Assembly (NCBI GenBank): GCA_010365215.1
Contig: JAAFGT010000055.1
Location: forward strand, 1-53,053
Source: Acidipila sp.
GTDB lineage: Bacteria; Acidobacteriota; Terriglobia; Acidiferrales; UBA7541
DNA: 53,053 nt
Reading direction: 5' to 3'
In this document: in pieces, positions 23,942 through 51,841 of the stretch
Numbering within the stretch: the first letter of the stretch is position 1
How the letters are laid out: every line of letters begins with the position of its first letter
The notes under the pieces: model-generated
Seen by the model: the letters and a program-made list of their open reading frames with translations, nothing else
Databases searched by the model: none
Told to the model about the DNA's origin: nothing
Program-made: the position numbers and the translations under genes

Positions 23942-25185
23942 CGAAGCGAGCGCCGGCGAGCGAGGTCGATTTCGCTCTGATCGGGCATCAGGAGAGTTGG
24001 AGAGCGGCCGCGGACGTGCTCGCTGTCCTGCGCGGACCCGGACGCACGCCACTGCCGGACGATGAGATCCAGGACATTCTTCCTTGGATTCCTCCCCGCG
24101 CAGTCTGCCATGTCGACATCGTTTCCGTCACCGGCGCGAAGGCGCGCGGCCTTTACATCGACTCCTTCATCCCTCCCGGCCGTCTGGAAGCCGCTAACGT
24201 GCACGAGAACATCGCCCGCGTTCGAGCGGCGGCGGCCTGCGCCATCAATGCAGGAGCGAAAATCGTGAGTCTCGGCGGCTTCAGCTCAATTCTGATCGAA
24301 GGCAACTTCGATCTGCTTCCGAACAAAAACGATCTGCTTTCGAAAAACCTCGATCTGCATTCGACAAAATTCGATCAGCTTCCAAAAAAACTCGACCGGC
24401 TTCCGGAAAAAAACGAAACGGTCTTCACCACCGGCAATACCTTGACCGTTGGTTTCATCGTTCAGGGCATCCAAAAGATGTGCGCGCGGGAGAGTCGAAA
24501 CCTCTCGAAATCAACGCTGCTCGTCGTTGGAGCAACCGGAGATGTAGGCTCCGGCTGCGCCCGTTGTCTGGCGCCTGCCGTCAGGCGCGTGCTGCTCAGC
24601 GCGCGCAATCCAGACCGGCTGCGCAGGCTCGCAGCGGAGTTGCAAGCCGATGGAATTCAGGTGGAGATCGCCACGGATCTCCAGCGATTCTCCGTCGAGG
24701 CCGACGTCGTGATCTGCGCCGCGAGTCTGCCGTCCCCTTCGCTGCTATTGGACCGCGTCGCGCCCCACGCCATCGTTTGCGATGCCGGTTATCCCAAAAA
24801 CCTCTCTCCCAGCGCAAAGATGCTTGGCGCCAAAATCTTCTTCGGAGGTCTGGGACAGATCACCGGAGGAATGAGGTTCGCGCCCGATTTTCATGGAATT
24901 CTGAACCGGCATCCGTTCCCCGATGTGGTGCATGGATGTCTGCTCGAAGGCATGGCTCTTGCTCTGGAGGGCCGGTTCGAATCCTTTTCTCAAGGAAGAG
25001 GGTTCATCTCTCGGGGCAGGGTCGAGGAGATGCTGGCCATCGCGGCGCGGCATGGGATCTATCTCGCACCGCTTTACAACGCCGATGGACCAATAGAGGA
25101 CGAAACTTCATCGCCAGACGGAATGGACCTGAGCATGAGTGCCGGCCCCACCATGGGTGTGGGCCGGTTTCCGAGCTGTCCGTAA
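23917..25185 (+). CDS. aar: Acyl-ACP reductase (AAR)-like protein with heptad-repeat insert
   Basis: A 422-residue protein from ATG 23917, which has GGGAGG 10 nt upstream and overlaps the ado gene by 25 bp. It follows cyanobacterial AAR: FALIGHQES at the start, DIVSVTGAKARG, LGGFSSILIE, FTTGNTLTVGFI, Rossmann motif GATGDVG (205-211), SARNPDRLRRL, CDAGYPKNLS, and VHGCLLEGMAL, where Cys341 corresponds to the catalytic thioester-forming Cys. AAR reduces fatty acyl-ACP to aldehyde with NADPH, the substrate of ADO. Just before FTTGNT, five perfect 7-residue repeats (131-165) enlarge a loop that is about 18 residues in cyanobacteria. The final 40 residues also extend past the usual end. Confidence in the family is high; activity is inferred. 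Confidence 0.85.
   Translation: MGGSIAGVAKRAPASEVDFALIGHQESWRAAADVLAVLRGPGRTPLPDDEIQDILPWIPPRAVCHVDIVSVTGAKARGLYIDSFIPPGRLEAANVHENIARVRAAAACAINAGAKIVSLGGFSSILIEGNFDLLPNKNDLLSKNLDLHSTKFDQLPKKLDRLPEKNETVFTTGNTLTVGFIVQGIQKMCARESRNLSKSTLLVVGATGDVGSGCARCLAPAVRRVLLSARNPDRLRRLAAELQADGIQVEIATDLQRFSVEADVVICAASLPSPSLLLDRVAPHAIVCDAGYPKNLSPSAKMLGAKIFFGGLGQITGGMRFAPDFHGILNRHPFPDVVHGCLLEGMALALEGRFESFSQGRGFISRGRVEEMLAIAARHGIYLAPLYNADGPIEDETSSPDGMDLSMSAGPTMGVGRFPSCP
24307..24411 (+). repeat. Five 21-bp tandem repeats inside the AAR gene
   Basis: Units begin at 24307, 24328, 24349, 24370 and 24391; consensus TTCGATCTGCTTCCGAAAAAA. They encode heptads FDLLPNK, NDLLSKN, LDLHSTK, FDQLPKK and LDRLPEK in frame. 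The tract is AT-richer than the rest of the gene. Confidence 0.95.
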
Positions 25186-29538: not shown

Positions 29539-29841
29539 ATGACCAGGCATACGATCCTTGCAGGCGTCCTATTACTGGCTTCATCGCCACTGTTCGCGCA
29601 ACCGCAGGATTCCACAACGCCACCCGATAGCCGGGCGACGCCGGAGCAAAATCACAACTCGCCGGAGCAAAATCACAACTCGGTTGACGGGGAATCACAC
29701 CGGGAATCACAGGAAGCGAAGTCGCGGCGGCGGCGCCGCTACCACCGGAGACGGCACCGGCGGCATCATCGGCATCCGGTATCGCTTCATGGGGTGAATC
29801 AGCAACCGCGTCCCGAACAGGCCGGAGGGAAGTCAGCCTAG
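29539..29841 (+). CDS. Small secreted Arg/His-rich protein
   Basis: The 100-residue protein has a strong ribosome site (GGGGGAGAA before ATG) and a signal peptide (ILAGVLLLASSPLFAQ). The mature part is polar and low-complexity: a duplicated PEQNHNS (15-bp DNA repeat), then a dense basic tract of about 19 Arg, His and Tyr residues at 62-80. There is no recognised domain. It could bind anionic polymers, nucleic acid or metal at the cell surface; this is only inferred from composition. It starts 11 bp after the HAD gene and is followed by terminators. Confidence 0.55.
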   Translation: MTRHTILAGVLLLASSPLFAQPQDSTTPPDSRATPEQNHNSPEQNHNSVDGESHRESQEAKSRRRRRYHRRRHRRHHRHPVSLHGVNQQPRPEQAGGKSA

Positions 29842-30886: not shown

Positions 30887-31684
30887 CTAATTTACCGAAT
30901 CACTCGCAATCGCCGTTTCATCTCGCCAGGATTTGTCCGCATCCTTGGGAGCCGCACTCGCCGAAGCAGGTGCCGCCGGCGCGGCGGGCTGGGCGGTCTG
31001 CTGGGCTGTCTGCTGACCCATGCGAGTCTCGGGCTTGGTTTCAGGCTTGGCATCAGCCTTAGTTTCAGGCTTAGCATCAGCCTTAGCATCGGGCTTGGCC
31101 TCGGCTCTCGCATCCGGCCTGGCGTCAGCACGAGCGCCCGCGCGCGCGGCTCGGCTGGCATCATTACTCCGCGCGACCATGTCGGCACGCAGAACTTCCA
31201 CCGTCCCGTTGAACACCGCACCATCTTCTATGGCGATGCGCTTGGCCGTCGCATTTCCCTTCACTTTGCCGGTGCGGCCGATTTCAATGCGCTCTTCCGC
31301 CTGCACGTCACCGCGCACCTCGCCGTGCACCACAATCTCCCGGGCGGAAATCCCGGCGCGAACGCGCCCGCTAGCGCCGACGATCACGCGCACGCCCGCC
31401 AGCCGCAATGTGCCCTCCACTTCCCCATCGATGGACAGATCTTCGCGCCCGGAAATCTCTCCGCGCACCGTAATGCCGCGGCTGACGCGCGACGCGGTGG
31501 AAACCGCGGGAACCCCCGCAGCCGCAACAGGGACGGCGGGCGCAGGGCTGGCCGGGCCGTTCCATTGCTCCACCGGGGCAACGGCGGCTTGCACCGGTGC
31601 CGCGGGAACGGCTGCGGGCGGCGTAGAAGTTTGGCTCTCGGAAGACGCTGGAGACTTCTGCTCGTTCTGTTTGAACCATGCCAT
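30887..31684 (-). CDS. Bactofilin (polymer-forming cytoskeletal protein)
   Basis: The 265-residue protein starts at ATG 31684 (GGAGG 9 nt upstream). A flexible Pro/Ala-rich N-terminus begins MAWFKQ. The bactofilin core spans about residues 65-165: ITVRGEISGREDLSIDGEVEGTL, ASGRVRAGISAREIVVHGEVRGDV, RIEIGRTGKVKGNATAKRIAIEDGAVFNGTVEV, the regular G-x-V repeats of a right-handed beta helix. The tail is a tract of about ten degenerate tetrapeptides (DAKP, ETKA) and then an Ala/Pro-rich end. Bactofilins polymerise without nucleotide and help place envelope machinery. It is followed by the methyltransferase gene. Confidence 0.9.
   Translation of the reverse strand: MAWFKQNEQKSPASSESQTSTPPAAVPAAPVQAAVAPVEQWNGPASPAPAVPVAAAGVPAVSTASRVSRGITVRGEISGREDLSIDGEVEGTLRLAGVRVIVGASGRVRAGISAREIVVHGEVRGDVQAEERIEIGRTGKVKGNATAKRIAIEDGAVFNGTVEVLRADMVARSNDASRAARAGARADARPDARAEAKPDAKADAKPETKADAKPETKPETRMGQQTAQQTAQPAAPAAPASASAAPKDADKSWRDETAIASDSVN
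31029..31132 (-). repeat. Degenerate 12/24-bp in-frame repeats in bactofilin tail
   Basis: Plus-strand units such as TTGGTTTCAGGCTTGGCATC recur with small changes and encode alternating acidic and basic tetrapeptides. Confidence 0.8.
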
Positions 31685-37501: not shown

Positions 37502-37954
37502 ATGGACGCTAGGGATATTGAATTCATGCGCATGGCGCTCGCAGAAGCGCGCGCGGCCGAGCGCGCCGGTGAAGTGCCCATCGGTGCAGTGGTTACTCAA
37601 GGAGGTGAAGTGATTGCTCGCGCCGGCAACCGCACCATCACCGACTGCGACCCCACGGCGCACGCGGAAATCGTCGCGCTACGCCAGGCCGCCCGCGCGG
37701 CGCGCAACCATCGCCTCGGCGGCGCAACTATTTACGTGACCATCGAGCCCTGCGCGATGTGTGCGGGAGCCATGGTGCAAGCGCGAATTGAGCGCCTGGT
37801 CTACGGCGCAGCCGATCCGAAAGGCGGCGCGGTGAGCTCGTGCTTCGATGTGCTGAATCATCCGCAACTCAATCACCGCGTTACCGTCACTGCGGGAGTC
37901 CTGGCGGAAGAATGCGCGGCGCTGCTACAAACTTTTTTCGCCGCACGCCGCTGA
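37502..37954 (+). CDS. tadA: tRNA-specific adenosine deaminase
   Basis: The 150-residue protein starts at ATG 37502 ([16 protein letters not shown]). It carries the cytidine-deaminase-fold zinc signature H54-A-E56 ([10 protein letters not shown]) and P83-C84-A-M-C87, and the tRNA-binding [10 protein letters not shown]-like segment ([22 protein letters not shown]). TadA converts the wobble adenosine of tRNA-Arg(ACG) to inosine; that tRNA gene is at 25199-25275 in this window. Upstream in-frame codons from 37451 are unlikely to be translated. The gene is followed by the tRNA-Ser-derived repeats, which are transcribed from the opposite strand if at all. Confidence 0.93.
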
Positions 37955-37989
37955 CGATCTGCGAAAGAAGCGGCTAATAAGAATTATTC

Positions 37990-38088
37990 TGGCGGAGAGA
38001 GTGGGATTTGAACCGACGAGCACGCCCCGTCCCGCATCGCGGGACGAAGCAATCGATGTCCCAGGCCACCCGCCTTCGGTGAGTGCTT
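37990..38088 (-). repeat. tRNA-Ser 3'-half derived repeat, unit 3 (distal)
   Basis: 99 bp. On the minus strand it ends in a T-arm, acceptor strand and CCA nearly identical to tRNA-Ser, with one T-stem mismatch. The variable arm is replaced by a hairpin (CGTCCCGC/GCGGGACG), and the anticodon stem-loop remnant (CCGAAGGCGGGTGGCCTGG) lies at the 5' side. Confidence 0.9.
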
Positions 38089-38187
38089 TGGCGGAGAGGG
38101 TGGGATTTGAACCGACGAGCACGCCCCGTCCCGCATCGCGGGATGATGCAATAGATGTCCCAGGCCGACCGCTTTCGGTGAGTGCTC
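38089..38187 (-). repeat. tRNA-Ser 3'-half derived repeat, unit 2
   Basis: 99 bp, same organisation as the flanking units, with point changes in the hairpin arm (GGGATGATGCAATAGA) and the anticodon remnant. Confidence 0.9.
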
Positions 38188-38285
38188 TGGCGGACAGAGT
38201 GGGATTTGAACCAACGAGCACGCCCGTCCCGCATCGCGGGACGAAGCAATCGATGTCCCAGGCCCACCGCTTTCGGTGAGTGCTT
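38188..38285 (-). repeat. tRNA-Ser 3'-half derived repeat, unit 1 (next to tRNA)
   Basis: 98 bp, directly abutting the CCA end of the intact tRNA-Ser gene. It again ends in a CCA preceded by T-arm and acceptor sequences. Confidence 0.9.
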
Positions 38286-38378
38286 TGGCGGAGAGGGTGG
38301 GATTCGAACCCACGAGCCCGGTTTTACCAGGCCACCCGCTTTCGAGGCGGGCTCCTTCAACCACTCGGACACCTCTCC
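38286..38378 (-). tRNA. tRNA-Ser (anticodon CGA)
   Basis: A 93-nt class II tRNA: acceptor GGAGAGG/CCTCTCC, D-arm with GAGTGGTTGAAGGA, anticodon stem CCCGC/GCGGG with loop CTCGAAA (anticodon CGA, codon UCG), a long variable arm, T-loop TTCGAAT, discriminator G and encoded CCA (38286-38288). It is intact, unlike the three derived repeats directly downstream of its 3' end. Confidence 0.95.
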
Positions 38379-38466
38379 GCGCGCTGCGAGGCTTGAGAAA
38401 AGCGTAACAGACGTACGAGGGCCCGACAAGTTGTCAAACGACAAGACGTCACGCGGCGCGACCCCA

Positions 38467-39642
38467 CTACGGGCGTTTCTTAGCCGGACGTTTGCCTGCA
38501 GCCGTGGCAGGAATGCCGGTAAGTTTTTCCTGAGCCGGTCCCTTGTAGGCGCTGTCGACCGAGGCCGCCTCAGCGAAGGCTGCGCGAGCGTCGGCCATGC
38601 GTTTCAAGTTGATGAGCGCAAAACCCATGCGGTACTGGTTGCGGGCGTAGCTGAAATTATCGGATTTCAGCAGCGGCGATGCAGTCTTGAACGCCTCGAC
38701 GGCCTGGGCATTCTGTTTCCGCTGCAAGCGCACCTGCCCGATGGACGACCACGCCAATCCCTGCTGCACCGACTTCTGTTGCGCCCACTGCGCATCGCTC
38801 AGTGTTTCGGTTTCGGTGCCCTCCGGCTTCGCGGCCTTGCCCAGCAGATCGAGCGCGCGGTGCGCATTTTCCTCGGCCTTGTCGAGATCGATGCCGCGCT
38901 CGCTCGCGTCGTCGGCAAGCAAAAGCAGCATGCCCACGTTCGCCGGATCGCGCGTAAGAATTTTTTGAGCGAACGCCTGCATTTTGCGATAGTCCTTAGC
39001 CTGCTGATACGCCGAGGCCGCGAGCGACTGCGCGTTGGCCGCGTACGGCGAATCGGTAAAGCCCGCGCCATAACGCTCGAGGAGCGCAGCCCGGCGCGCG
39101 GGGTCGGTTTGCTGATTCGCGGCTTGGAAAAGCGCGTATTGCACGTAATTTACATTTTCTTTGACCTCGGCCAGAGCCTCGGCCTGCCGTTTTTTCCACT
39201 GATCGGCTCCCATGCCTGCCGGCGCCGGGCGCGCTTTGAATCGCGCGACGATGTCCTGGAGGCGCTCGCCGTAGGTAAACATTTTTTCAGGATCTTTTTT
39301 CTCTTGCGCTATCTGGAACAGCTTTAAGGCCGTGGCAAAGCTGTCGGGATCGACGGCGAACATTTTGTCGCCCATGGCGAAAGCTTGATCGTAGTTTTTC
39401 TGGGAGGCGTATGCGGCGATGTAAAGTTCGTAAGCGGCGATGGCCATATCGCCTTTGCCATAGTCGGCCAGAAATTTATCGAGCAGCGCGATCTTCTGCC
39501 CAGGGTCAGTGGTCTCGTTGATCGTTCGCAGCGCTTTGTCTTCCGCGGACCCGGCGGAAACAATGATGTCCTTGCCGATCTGCGCCGCGGCAGCTTGACT
39601 AAGAAGGAGGGCCATCGTCAGGACGAAAATCACACGCCGCAT
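38467..39642 (-). CDS. Secreted TPR-repeat protein
   Basis: The 391-residue protein has a signal peptide (VIFVLTMALLLSQAAAAQ), then helix pairs typical of tetratricopeptide repeats: AIAAYELYIAAYASQKNYDQAFAMGDKMFAVDP, SLAASAYQQAKDYRKMQAFAQKILTRDPANV, AWSSIGQVRLQRKQNAQAVEAFKTASPLL, YRMGFALINLKRMADARAAFAEAASVD, and a Lys/Pro-rich tail. TPR proteins scaffold protein complexes; the partner is not known. GGAGG lies before the ATG. It is followed downstream by tRNA-Ser and lies next to a small membrane-protein gene on the same strand. Confidence 0.85.
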   Translation of the reverse strand: MRRVIFVLTMALLLSQAAAAQIGKDIIVSAGSAEDKALRTINETTDPGQKIALLDKFLADYGKGDMAIAAYELYIAAYASQKNYDQAFAMGDKMFAVDPDSFATALKLFQIAQEKKDPEKMFTYGERLQDIVARFKARPAPAGMGADQWKKRQAEALAEVKENVNYVQYALFQAANQQTDPARRAALLERYGAGFTDSPYAANAQSLAASAYQQAKDYRKMQAFAQKILTRDPANVGMLLLLADDASERGIDLDKAEENAHRALDLLGKAAKPEGTETETLSDAQWAQQKSVQQGLAWSSIGQVRLQRKQNAQAVEAFKTASPLLKSDNFSYARNQYRMGFALINLKRMADARAAFAEAASVDSAYKGPAQEKLTGIPATAAGKRPAKKRP

Positions 39643-50422: not shown

Positions 50423-51841
50423 ATGGATACTCCAAACCAAATAACGACTGCTGTGAAAACGGCGAGCGCCACGCCGCAGTGGGAGGACTACGGCCGTTGC
50501 GTACACTGCGGCCTCTGCCTCAACCACTGCCCCACCTATCGCCTCGACGGTCTGGAAGCAGATTCTCCGCGCGGGCGCATACGCCAAATGCTTCTGGTCG
50601 ACGAAGGCAAGATGGAGCTGGGCGATACGTTTGTGAGCCACATCGACCAGTGCCTGGATTGCCGGGCGTGCGAGACGGCCTGCCCCTCAGGCGTCGAGTA
50701 CGGGCGGCTGGTGGAGTACGCGCGAGAAAATATCGAAGAGAACTATCCGCGGCCCGTGCTCGCGCACCTGGCGCGCTGGCTTTTTCTGCGGCACTTATTG
50801 CCGCATCCGCACCGCATCGCCGCGGCGGCGCGGGCCGTGCAGTTCTACCAGCGCACGGGCCTGCAAGCGCTGGCGCGCCGCTCTGGACTGCTGCATGCGC
50901 TGGGCCTGGCCGAACGCGAACGATTGCTGCCCGCGATCGACGGCCACTTTTTTTTCTCGCAGCTCGGGAAAACATTTCCCGCGCGGGGAAAGAGGCGCGC
51001 CCGGGTGGCCCTGTTTGCCGGGTGCATCGCCCAGGTTACATTTACCGCGCTGCACGAAGCCACCATCCGCGTACTGACGGCGAACGGCTGCGAAGTAGTC
51101 GTGCCGCGACAGCAGCGCTGTTGCGGAGCTTTAGCCGTCCATGCCGGTGTACGCAAGACCGCGCGATCCCTGGCGCGAATCAATATCGAAGCGTTCCTGC
51201 GTGGAAAGTCCCGCGGAGTGCCCGGTGGCGCGTACGACGCCATCATCGTAAATGCCGCCGGCTGCGGCTCCACTCTAAAGGAATATGCGCGGCTGGCCGA
51301 CGGCACGCTCGGGGCGCCCGACTGGGATGAGCAGGCGCGCGGGGCGGCTGCATCGTTCTCCGCCAAAGTCCGCGACGTCACGGAGTTTCTAGCCGAACTG
51401 GGTCTGGTAGCACCGCTGCAGACACTCCCCCTGCGCGTCACTTACCAGGATTCCTGCCATCTGCTGCACGCGCAAAAGGTGCGCGAGGCGCCGCGCAAAT
51501 TAATTCGCGCCATCCCTGGCGTGGAGCTGGTGGAAATGCCTTTGGCGGATTACTGCTGCGGCTCGGCAGGAATTTACAACGTCACGGAAACGGAAAACTC
51601 GATGCGGATTCTCGACGAAAAAATGCGCTATGCAACGTCCACGAATGCCGCCGCGATCGTCACGGCGAATCCCGGCTGCATCCTGCAGCTTCGCGCCGGA
51701 GTGGCCATGCACGGCACGGGACAGGACGTGTTGCACGTCGTAGAACTGCTGGATCGGGCGATGAACGGGGCGATGAACGGGGCGATGAGCGGGGCCAAGA
51801 ACGGCACCGTCAACGGCGTCACGAACCGCGATGCCGGGTAA
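50423..51841 (+). CDS. glcF: Glycolate oxidase iron-sulfur subunit GlcF
   Basis: The 472-residue protein (ATG 50423) has two [4Fe-4S] motifs, CVHCGLCLNHCPTY and CLDCRACETACPSG, followed by two CCG-type domains (QRCCGALAVHAG, TYQDSCHLLHAQ, ADYCCGSAGIYNV). It transfers electrons from GlcDE to the quinone pool at the membrane. It starts 108 bp after glcE on the same strand. The C-terminal approximately 22 residues are an NG-rich repeat (MNGA, MNGA, MSGA, KNGT, VNGV) encoded by 12-bp tandem repeats, not a usual GlcF feature. Confidence 0.93.
   Translation: MDTPNQITTAVKTASATPQWEDYGRCVHCGLCLNHCPTYRLDGLEADSPRGRIRQMLLVDEGKMELGDTFVSHIDQCLDCRACETACPSGVEYGRLVEYARENIEENYPRPVLAHLARWLFLRHLLPHPHRIAAAARAVQFYQRTGLQALARRSGLLHALGLAERERLLPAIDGHFFFSQLGKTFPARGKRRARVALFAGCIAQVTFTALHEATIRVLTANGCEVVVPRQQRCCGALAVHAGVRKTARSLARINIEAFLRGKSRGVPGGAYDAIIVNAAGCGSTLKEYARLADGTLGAPDWDEQARGAAASFSAKVRDVTEFLAELGLVAPLQTLPLRVTYQDSCHLLHAQKVREAPRKLIRAIPGVELVEMPLADYCCGSAGIYNVTETENSMRILDEKMRYATSTNAAAIVTANPGCILQLRAGVAMHGTGQDVLHVVELLDRAMNGAMNGAMSGAKNGTVNGVTNRDAG
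51758..51817 (+). repeat. Five 12-bp tandem repeats at the 3' end of glcF
   Basis: GCGATGAACGGG twice, GCGATGAGCGGG, GCCAAGAACGGC, ACCGTCAACGGC: in-frame units of increasing divergence, encoding an Asn-Gly-rich tail. Confidence 0.9.

Follow-up and report, generated by a model that had tools for sequence, protein, structure and literature searches.

A tandem array of tRNA-Ser(CGA) tail copies in an acidobacterial genome shares the layout of the E. coli rtT repeats

The rtT locus of Escherichia coli is the known example of a layout in which the tail of a tRNA gene is repeated behind the gene. In strain MG1655, three units of 178 bp lie behind tyrV, each ending in the last 19 nt of the tRNA, and the locus is annotated as the small RNA RttR. 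Partial tRNA copies are also left by integrated islands, for which Islander (PMC4383910) gives the anticodon loop, the T loop and the T-acceptor junction as the crossover subsites within tRNA genes. Our limited search of open papers, by title and the start of the abstract, found no literature on such arrays outside enteric bacteria; Boesl and Kersten (1991) is among the entries of the reference list of PMC11623569.

We analyzed a 53,053-nt stretch of an Acidipila genome, hereafter the window, in which the first-pass annotation had described three tandem units of 98, 99 and 99 bp behind tRNA-Ser(CGA). Their lengths and positions are as it claimed, and the features of the locus are as follows.

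38286..38378, minus strand: intact tRNA-Ser(CGA), CCA encoded (ARAGORN; Rfam RF00005, 58 bits)
38188..38285, minus strand: unit 1, 98 bp, partial tRNA-Ser copy from the anticodon arm to CCA with an insert in the variable arm
38226-38242, minus strand: hairpin of unit 1, GTCCCGC-GAT-GCGGGAC
38089..38187, minus strand: unit 2, 99 bp, with the hairpin arm at 38128-38144 (one mismatch)
37990..38088, minus strand: unit 3, 99 bp, with the hairpin at 38029-38045
37505..37954, plus strand: cytidine/adenosine deaminase family gene, convergent to the tRNA (PF14437, PF00383)

The units lie head-to-tail and without gaps behind tRNA-Ser(CGA), end in CCGCCA at 38188, 38089 and 37990, and are 91.8, 93.9 and 92.9% identical in pairwise comparison. 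TRF reported the array with a period of 99, 3.3 copies, 90% matches and a score of 551, ranking it first among 12 rows for the window; the other rows include short tandem repeats at 24304-24416 (period 42/21), 29639-29682 (period 21), 31032-31099 (period 12/24) and 51756-51804 (period 12). The earlier comparison with rtT is apt in layout, as the locus has CCA-to-CCA tandem units directly behind a tRNA gene and these units end in the 3′ end of that tRNA, just as in MG1655. The array also has the combination that marks an integrated genomic island, an intact tRNA with a downstream 3′ fragment in the same orientation, but island DNA with an integrase is absent between them, the units abutting the tRNA and each other. 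Downstream of the last CCA comes the convergent deaminase-family gene, presumably tadA. No terminator was found on the minus strand in 37850-38600, and a promoter-like match on this strand at the end of unit 3 fits only 9 of 12 consensus positions. Two long open frames, 38182-39327 (plus strand, 381 aa) and 37974-38444 (minus strand, 156 aa), span the tRNA and the array, and both are probably spurious. The source genome is a 91-contig draft, which might raise the suspicion of an assembly artefact; this explanation is hardly credible, because the three copies differ from one another at several positions, all inside one 53-kb contig, and the same layout occurs in the single-contig genomes G419 and G104 (contigs of 6.5 and 2.4 Mb; G and L numbers are our working handles for genomes and loci).

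The units derive from the tRNA. The first 27 nt of each align without gaps with tRNA nt 26-52, that is, the anticodon arm and the start of the variable arm, with a score reached by none of 1000 shuffles for any unit, and the final 32 nt of unit 1 align with the T arm, the acceptor strand and CCA. The description of the array as made from the 3′ half of tRNA-Ser was thus correct but incomplete, since about 35 nt in the middle of each unit, which replace the variable-arm loop and contain the hairpin, are not tRNA sequence. The first 25 nt of the tRNA are missing, leaving the units without the 5′ acceptor strand and the D arm. The hairpin CGTCCCGC/GCGGGACG, which had been proposed to replace the variable arm throughout, is perfect in units 1 and 3 but mismatched in unit 2, where the arm reads ATCCCGC with one A.C mismatch at the hairpin base and the minimum-energy fold lacks this hairpin. 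The T stem is mismatched in all three units (GTTGG or GTCGG against CCCAC), and no compensatory changes were seen among them. The fold z-scores of the interiors against shuffles were −1.60, −0.24 and −1.79 for units 1 to 3.

Processing of the tRNA type requires a paired acceptor stem and T arm. The units do not form a tRNA cloverleaf and were called as tRNA neither by ARAGORN nor by RF00005 at the gathering score. The suggestion that RNase P/Z-type enzymes process them is therefore poorly supported: the 5′ acceptor strand and the D arm are both missing, and the T stems are mismatched. A related proposal is a selected RNA element like the RttR proposed for E. coli, with CCA-ended tail RNAs or decoys made from the tRNA-Ser transcript. 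It would account for the CCA ends kept in three diverged units, which could also mean selection, and the layout matches that of rtT with its annotated small RNA; nevertheless, we regard it as improbable, given the above z-scores, the hairpin of unit 2 broken without compensation, the mismatched T stems, the lack of any Rfam family besides tRNA at gathering score, interiors that mostly look unrelated between lineages and, in a genus described below, eight of 14 genomes with neither unit nor stub. We found no evidence of tRNA-like processing or of a selected RNA.

Within the source genome, the array is unique. Rfam gave 45 tRNA matches, and among the 44 distinct tRNA genes examined, several of which had less than 1 kb of searchable downstream sequence near contig ends or stretch edges, only tRNA-Ser(CGA) has its 3′ 25 nt recurring close downstream, neighbors in tRNA clusters aside; one weak exception is a match with 8 mismatches 839 nt behind tRNA-Ser(GGA). 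The only other genomic match of the array is to 30 nt of the tRNA-Ser(GGA) 3′ end. A 75-nt unit core matched well in the source genome only among 95 genomes of the order, which include no other member of the window's genus, and the next best match was 21 nt long (E 3e-4). Likewise, the unit sequence was not found in other genomes among the matches listed, and there was no exact pattern match in genome_contigs and no plasmid match, in collections that may omit the records of the source genome. One phage record, from a collection with the same possible omission, matches the unit over 30 nt that cover the T-arm end.

Several other identities of the unit were considered and set aside. Origin from a phage or plasmid is not favored by the lack of a plasmid match and a sole phage match confined to 30 nt at the T-arm end. 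A scattered mobile repeat does not fit a hairpin whose only occurrences in the genome are the three units and one further site with two mismatches. As for known RNA families, no Rfam family besides tRNA reached the gathering score at the locus, and the best non-tRNA match below it, sX4, scored 27.6 bits against a cut-off of 70 and overlies the tRNA. The Rfam RtT model (RF00391) gave four matches in the E. coli locus as a positive control, none in the window and none in 13 array loci, so that the array does not belong to the RtT family. The fourth match in MG1655 (L426 2164-2295) sits in the tyrT-tyrV spacer, besides the three behind tyrV. A coding repeat is not supported either, as many of the units in the different lineages have lengths not divisible by three (98, 94, 104, 97, 77, 91).

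We then searched more widely, not for the unit sequence but for 3′ ends of tRNA-Ser in tandem, with patterns that required 18-19 nt. Of 89 genomes from the window's family, three matched (G000, G004, G040), and in G041 a single degenerate copy separates tRNA-Ser(CGA) from the tadA-like gene. In a draw from the phylum, 12 of 396 genomes matched: units that are not tRNAs follow tRNA-Ser(CGA) in G000, G104, G262, G308, G436, G419 and G473, the last with such a unit also behind a tRNA fragment, and ordinary tRNA-Ser pairs account for G413, G294, G420, G412 and G332. In genome_contigs, 36 stretches matched, of which 21 carry ordinary tRNA-Ser clusters (22 clusters in all) and 15 hold non-tRNA units (L194, L195, L198, L199, L201-L204, L208, L209, L211, L213, L218, L222 and L223). 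The tRNA preceding the unit in these 15 loci is Ser(CGA) in eight, Ser(GGA) in three, Ser(GCT) in one and not intact in three, a bias towards tRNA-Ser that is partly due to the search patterns, since the survey outside the source genome covered tRNA-Ser only. By record title, the sources are Acidobacteriota and MAGs labeled Alpha- and Gammaproteobacteria, Rhodospirillales, Binatia and Latescibacterota, labels that, like the binning, may err. Arrays of the same layout thus exist in other lineages. The prediction that the unit would be found beside other acidobacterial tRNA-Ser genes failed for its own sequence, while different units with the same layout are present there.

The interiors mostly look unrelated between lineages. 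Fold z-scores of 23 interiors ranged from −3.81 to +1.87, a spread that rules out a universal strong hairpin as the hallmark of these arrays. In G104 (L121 / L074), a short frame past a partial third unit resembles, in translation by eye, the truncated start of a GIY-YIG nuclease. The frequency of ordinary tandem tRNA-Ser pairs, in 5 of the 12 genomes and 21 of the 36 loci above, would suit an origin of the units from decayed full-length tRNA-Ser genes that lost their 5′ ends. Such decay is very unlikely in the window, where the first 25 nt are gone from all three units and each carries the same insert, so the 5′ loss must have preceded the copying; moreover, most of the other arrays hold just 19-26 nt of tRNA.

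A tandem duplication of the tRNA tail with its trailer predicts a partial last copy, in which the unit start recurs past the last CCA. We compared 15 arrays for this trace, leaving out the g92-type arrays L194, L199, L201, L203 and L209 (of which L201 and L203 resemble G262 and G436), L204, L211 and L222, which have no intact tRNA directly before the unit, the degenerate G041, and G004, which has the same sequence as the included L208; the three g92 arrays within the set are not independent. The unit start recurs in four of the 15 (G104, G419, L198 and G262) at 10-12 of 12 nt, against 8 of 12 nt for the best of 210 cross-pairs as background. The remaining 11 arrays have no partial last copy, including that of the window, where 3 of 12 nt agree. 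The copied block usually has its start in the T arm, at 19-29 nt from CCA in 11 of the 15 arrays; the search patterns themselves impose the lower limit of 18-19 nt, and a binomial value for these starts assumes that they are even and independent. The block in the window, 32 nt plus the anticodon arm, is longer than most.

The genus g92 reveals how such units vary between species. Among 14 g92 genomes, the interval between tRNA-Ser(CGA) and rpmH (L081-L083, L357-L371) contains an 84-bp unit in three, a stub of 12-36 bp in three (36 and 33 bp in G211 and G220, 12 bp in G404) and no unit in eight, and the one genome of genus g123 compared has no unit. G262 has the unit and an extra 36-bp stub. 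The variants with and without the unit are joined at CCA, and presence and absence thus differ between species of one genus. The variable arm of the unit equals that of the same genome's tRNA in G262 and G436 but not in G308, a pattern in sequence that suggests occasional gene conversion.

In relatives, tRNA-Ser(CGA) is occupied by integrases and islands. Phage_integrase genes begin 121 nt (L017) and 79 nt (L024) past this tRNA in the window's family, and these were the two integrases among nine downstream proteins of family loci run against Pfam; AIPR and BrnA genes lie behind it in L006 and L007. The tadA-like gene is convergent to tRNA-Ser(CGA) in 5 of 20 family loci (L128-L147, within the stretch examined), at a distance of 1.9-3.1 kb in G037, G049 and G083 versus 0.2-0.3 kb in G041 and the window; G419 and G473 instead have it upstream, on the strand that carries the tRNA. 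In a viral search that reported at least 120 stretches, 80 loci with a core were analyzed; 71 core matches fall inside predicted tRNAs, and 20 are fragments. Sorted by eye, 12 of the 20 tRNA-Ser fragments start at the anticodon loop (10 of CGA and 2 of TGA type), whereas the other 8 start in the T arm, two of these looking identical. The earlier idea that the array records repeated insertion at a tRNA 3′ end thus held insofar as tRNA-Ser(CGA) is an integration site in relatives; the window locus itself shows no integrase and no element end.

Tandem islands bounded by the tRNA 3′ core occur at tRNA-Ser(CGA) in G473 (L119), G492 (L421-L422, which includes L222) and G219 (L417-L420). Many of them have a conserved end of about 95 nt, containing TCTGTAA-TTACAGA, directly next to the 26-nt tRNA core, and a second type of island end is found in G219 and G492. 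The cargo of the G473 islands includes HigB, an IrrE-like gene, pP_pnuc_1, a protein with a NACHT C-terminal domain and NTP_transf_2/HepT, and none of eight G473 proteins run against Pfam is an integrase. These islands bear on the main rival explanation, that the units are attachment-site scars: islands with two cores about 97 bp apart would enter via one core and leave via the other, and every cycle of integration and exit would deposit one core-to-core unit behind the tRNA. Behind three of the four exact cores in G473 (the tRNA included) and two cores in G492 there is indeed a unit of 92-97 bp with a second core at its end, a recombinase with PF00589 is encoded in one G492 island, and the homology in the window starts in the anticodon arm, near the start of 12 of the 20 viral fragments. 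However, no core-unit-core pair was seen at the tandem-island locus of G219, the g92 units were gained and lost with no island seen, and the window has no island, integrase or conserved element end, nor does its unit have evident sequence in common with the island units. We consider such scars possible but unlikely.

On balance, and with modest confidence, we favor an rtT-like array that arose by tandem duplication of the tRNA tail and trailer at an integration hotspot, followed by growth in copy number. DNA from inside tRNA-Ser(CGA) into the 3′ trailer would have been duplicated once in tandem, giving a partial copy from the anticodon arm to CCA. This first duplication was probably favored by the tRNA 3′ part being a crossover site of tyrosine integrases, whose involvement, here and elsewhere, we infer. 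Since all three units carry it, the hairpin-bearing insert would have taken the place of the variable arm before the copy number rose. The CCA-to-CCA segment may then have grown to three copies via unequal recombination or slippage, after which the copies would have drifted 6-8% apart. If cotranscribed with the tRNA, the units would form a long trailer that is trimmed off, presumably with no selected function. For the window itself, the duplication is our reading of the repeat structure, and it has to be set against the missing partial last copy, integrase and attR-like end.

Overall, the array looks more like a recurring accident at a favored site of DNA insertion than like a new machine. Several lineages have arrays behind tRNA-Ser whose interiors are unrelated, and these, together with g92 species with and without the unit, make the origin of such repeats accessible to comparison; the common T-arm start of the copied block would tie the arrays to the sites where integrases cross over. 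In annotation work, tails of this kind explain probably spurious open frames beside tRNA-Ser genes. A bolder notion, which we think doubtful, is that tRNA-tail arrays are a recurrent class of selected elements in bacteria, E. coli rtT among them. Short CCA-ended tails would time and again be assembled and retained behind tRNA-Ser(CGA), where they would either act as tail RNAs or shield the tRNA gene by offering integrases a spare landing site.

Among known arrangements, tandem tRNA-Ser gene pairs resemble the array in their common 3′ ends at a spacing of about 90-120 bp, but the window units lack the 5′ acceptor strand and the D arm and are not called as tRNAs. The attR fragments of islands and prophages, as catalogued by Islander (PMC4383910), are likewise displaced 3′ fragments that lie past an intact tRNA, share its orientation and start at the anticodon loop or in the T arm. 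In contrast to them, the window has three similar copies with no island or integrase between tRNA and fragment, and its 99-bp spacing is far below the 2-kb limit of Islander. The rtT/RttR repeats of the tyrT-tyrV locus also consist of three tandem units directly behind a tRNA, each ending in its 3′ end with CCA. However, the rtT units are 178 bp long, include no more than 19 nt of tRNA-Tyr and form a stem with the loop GCA, whereas the window array has units of 98-99 bp that copy tRNA-Ser in a block of 32 nt plus the anticodon arm.
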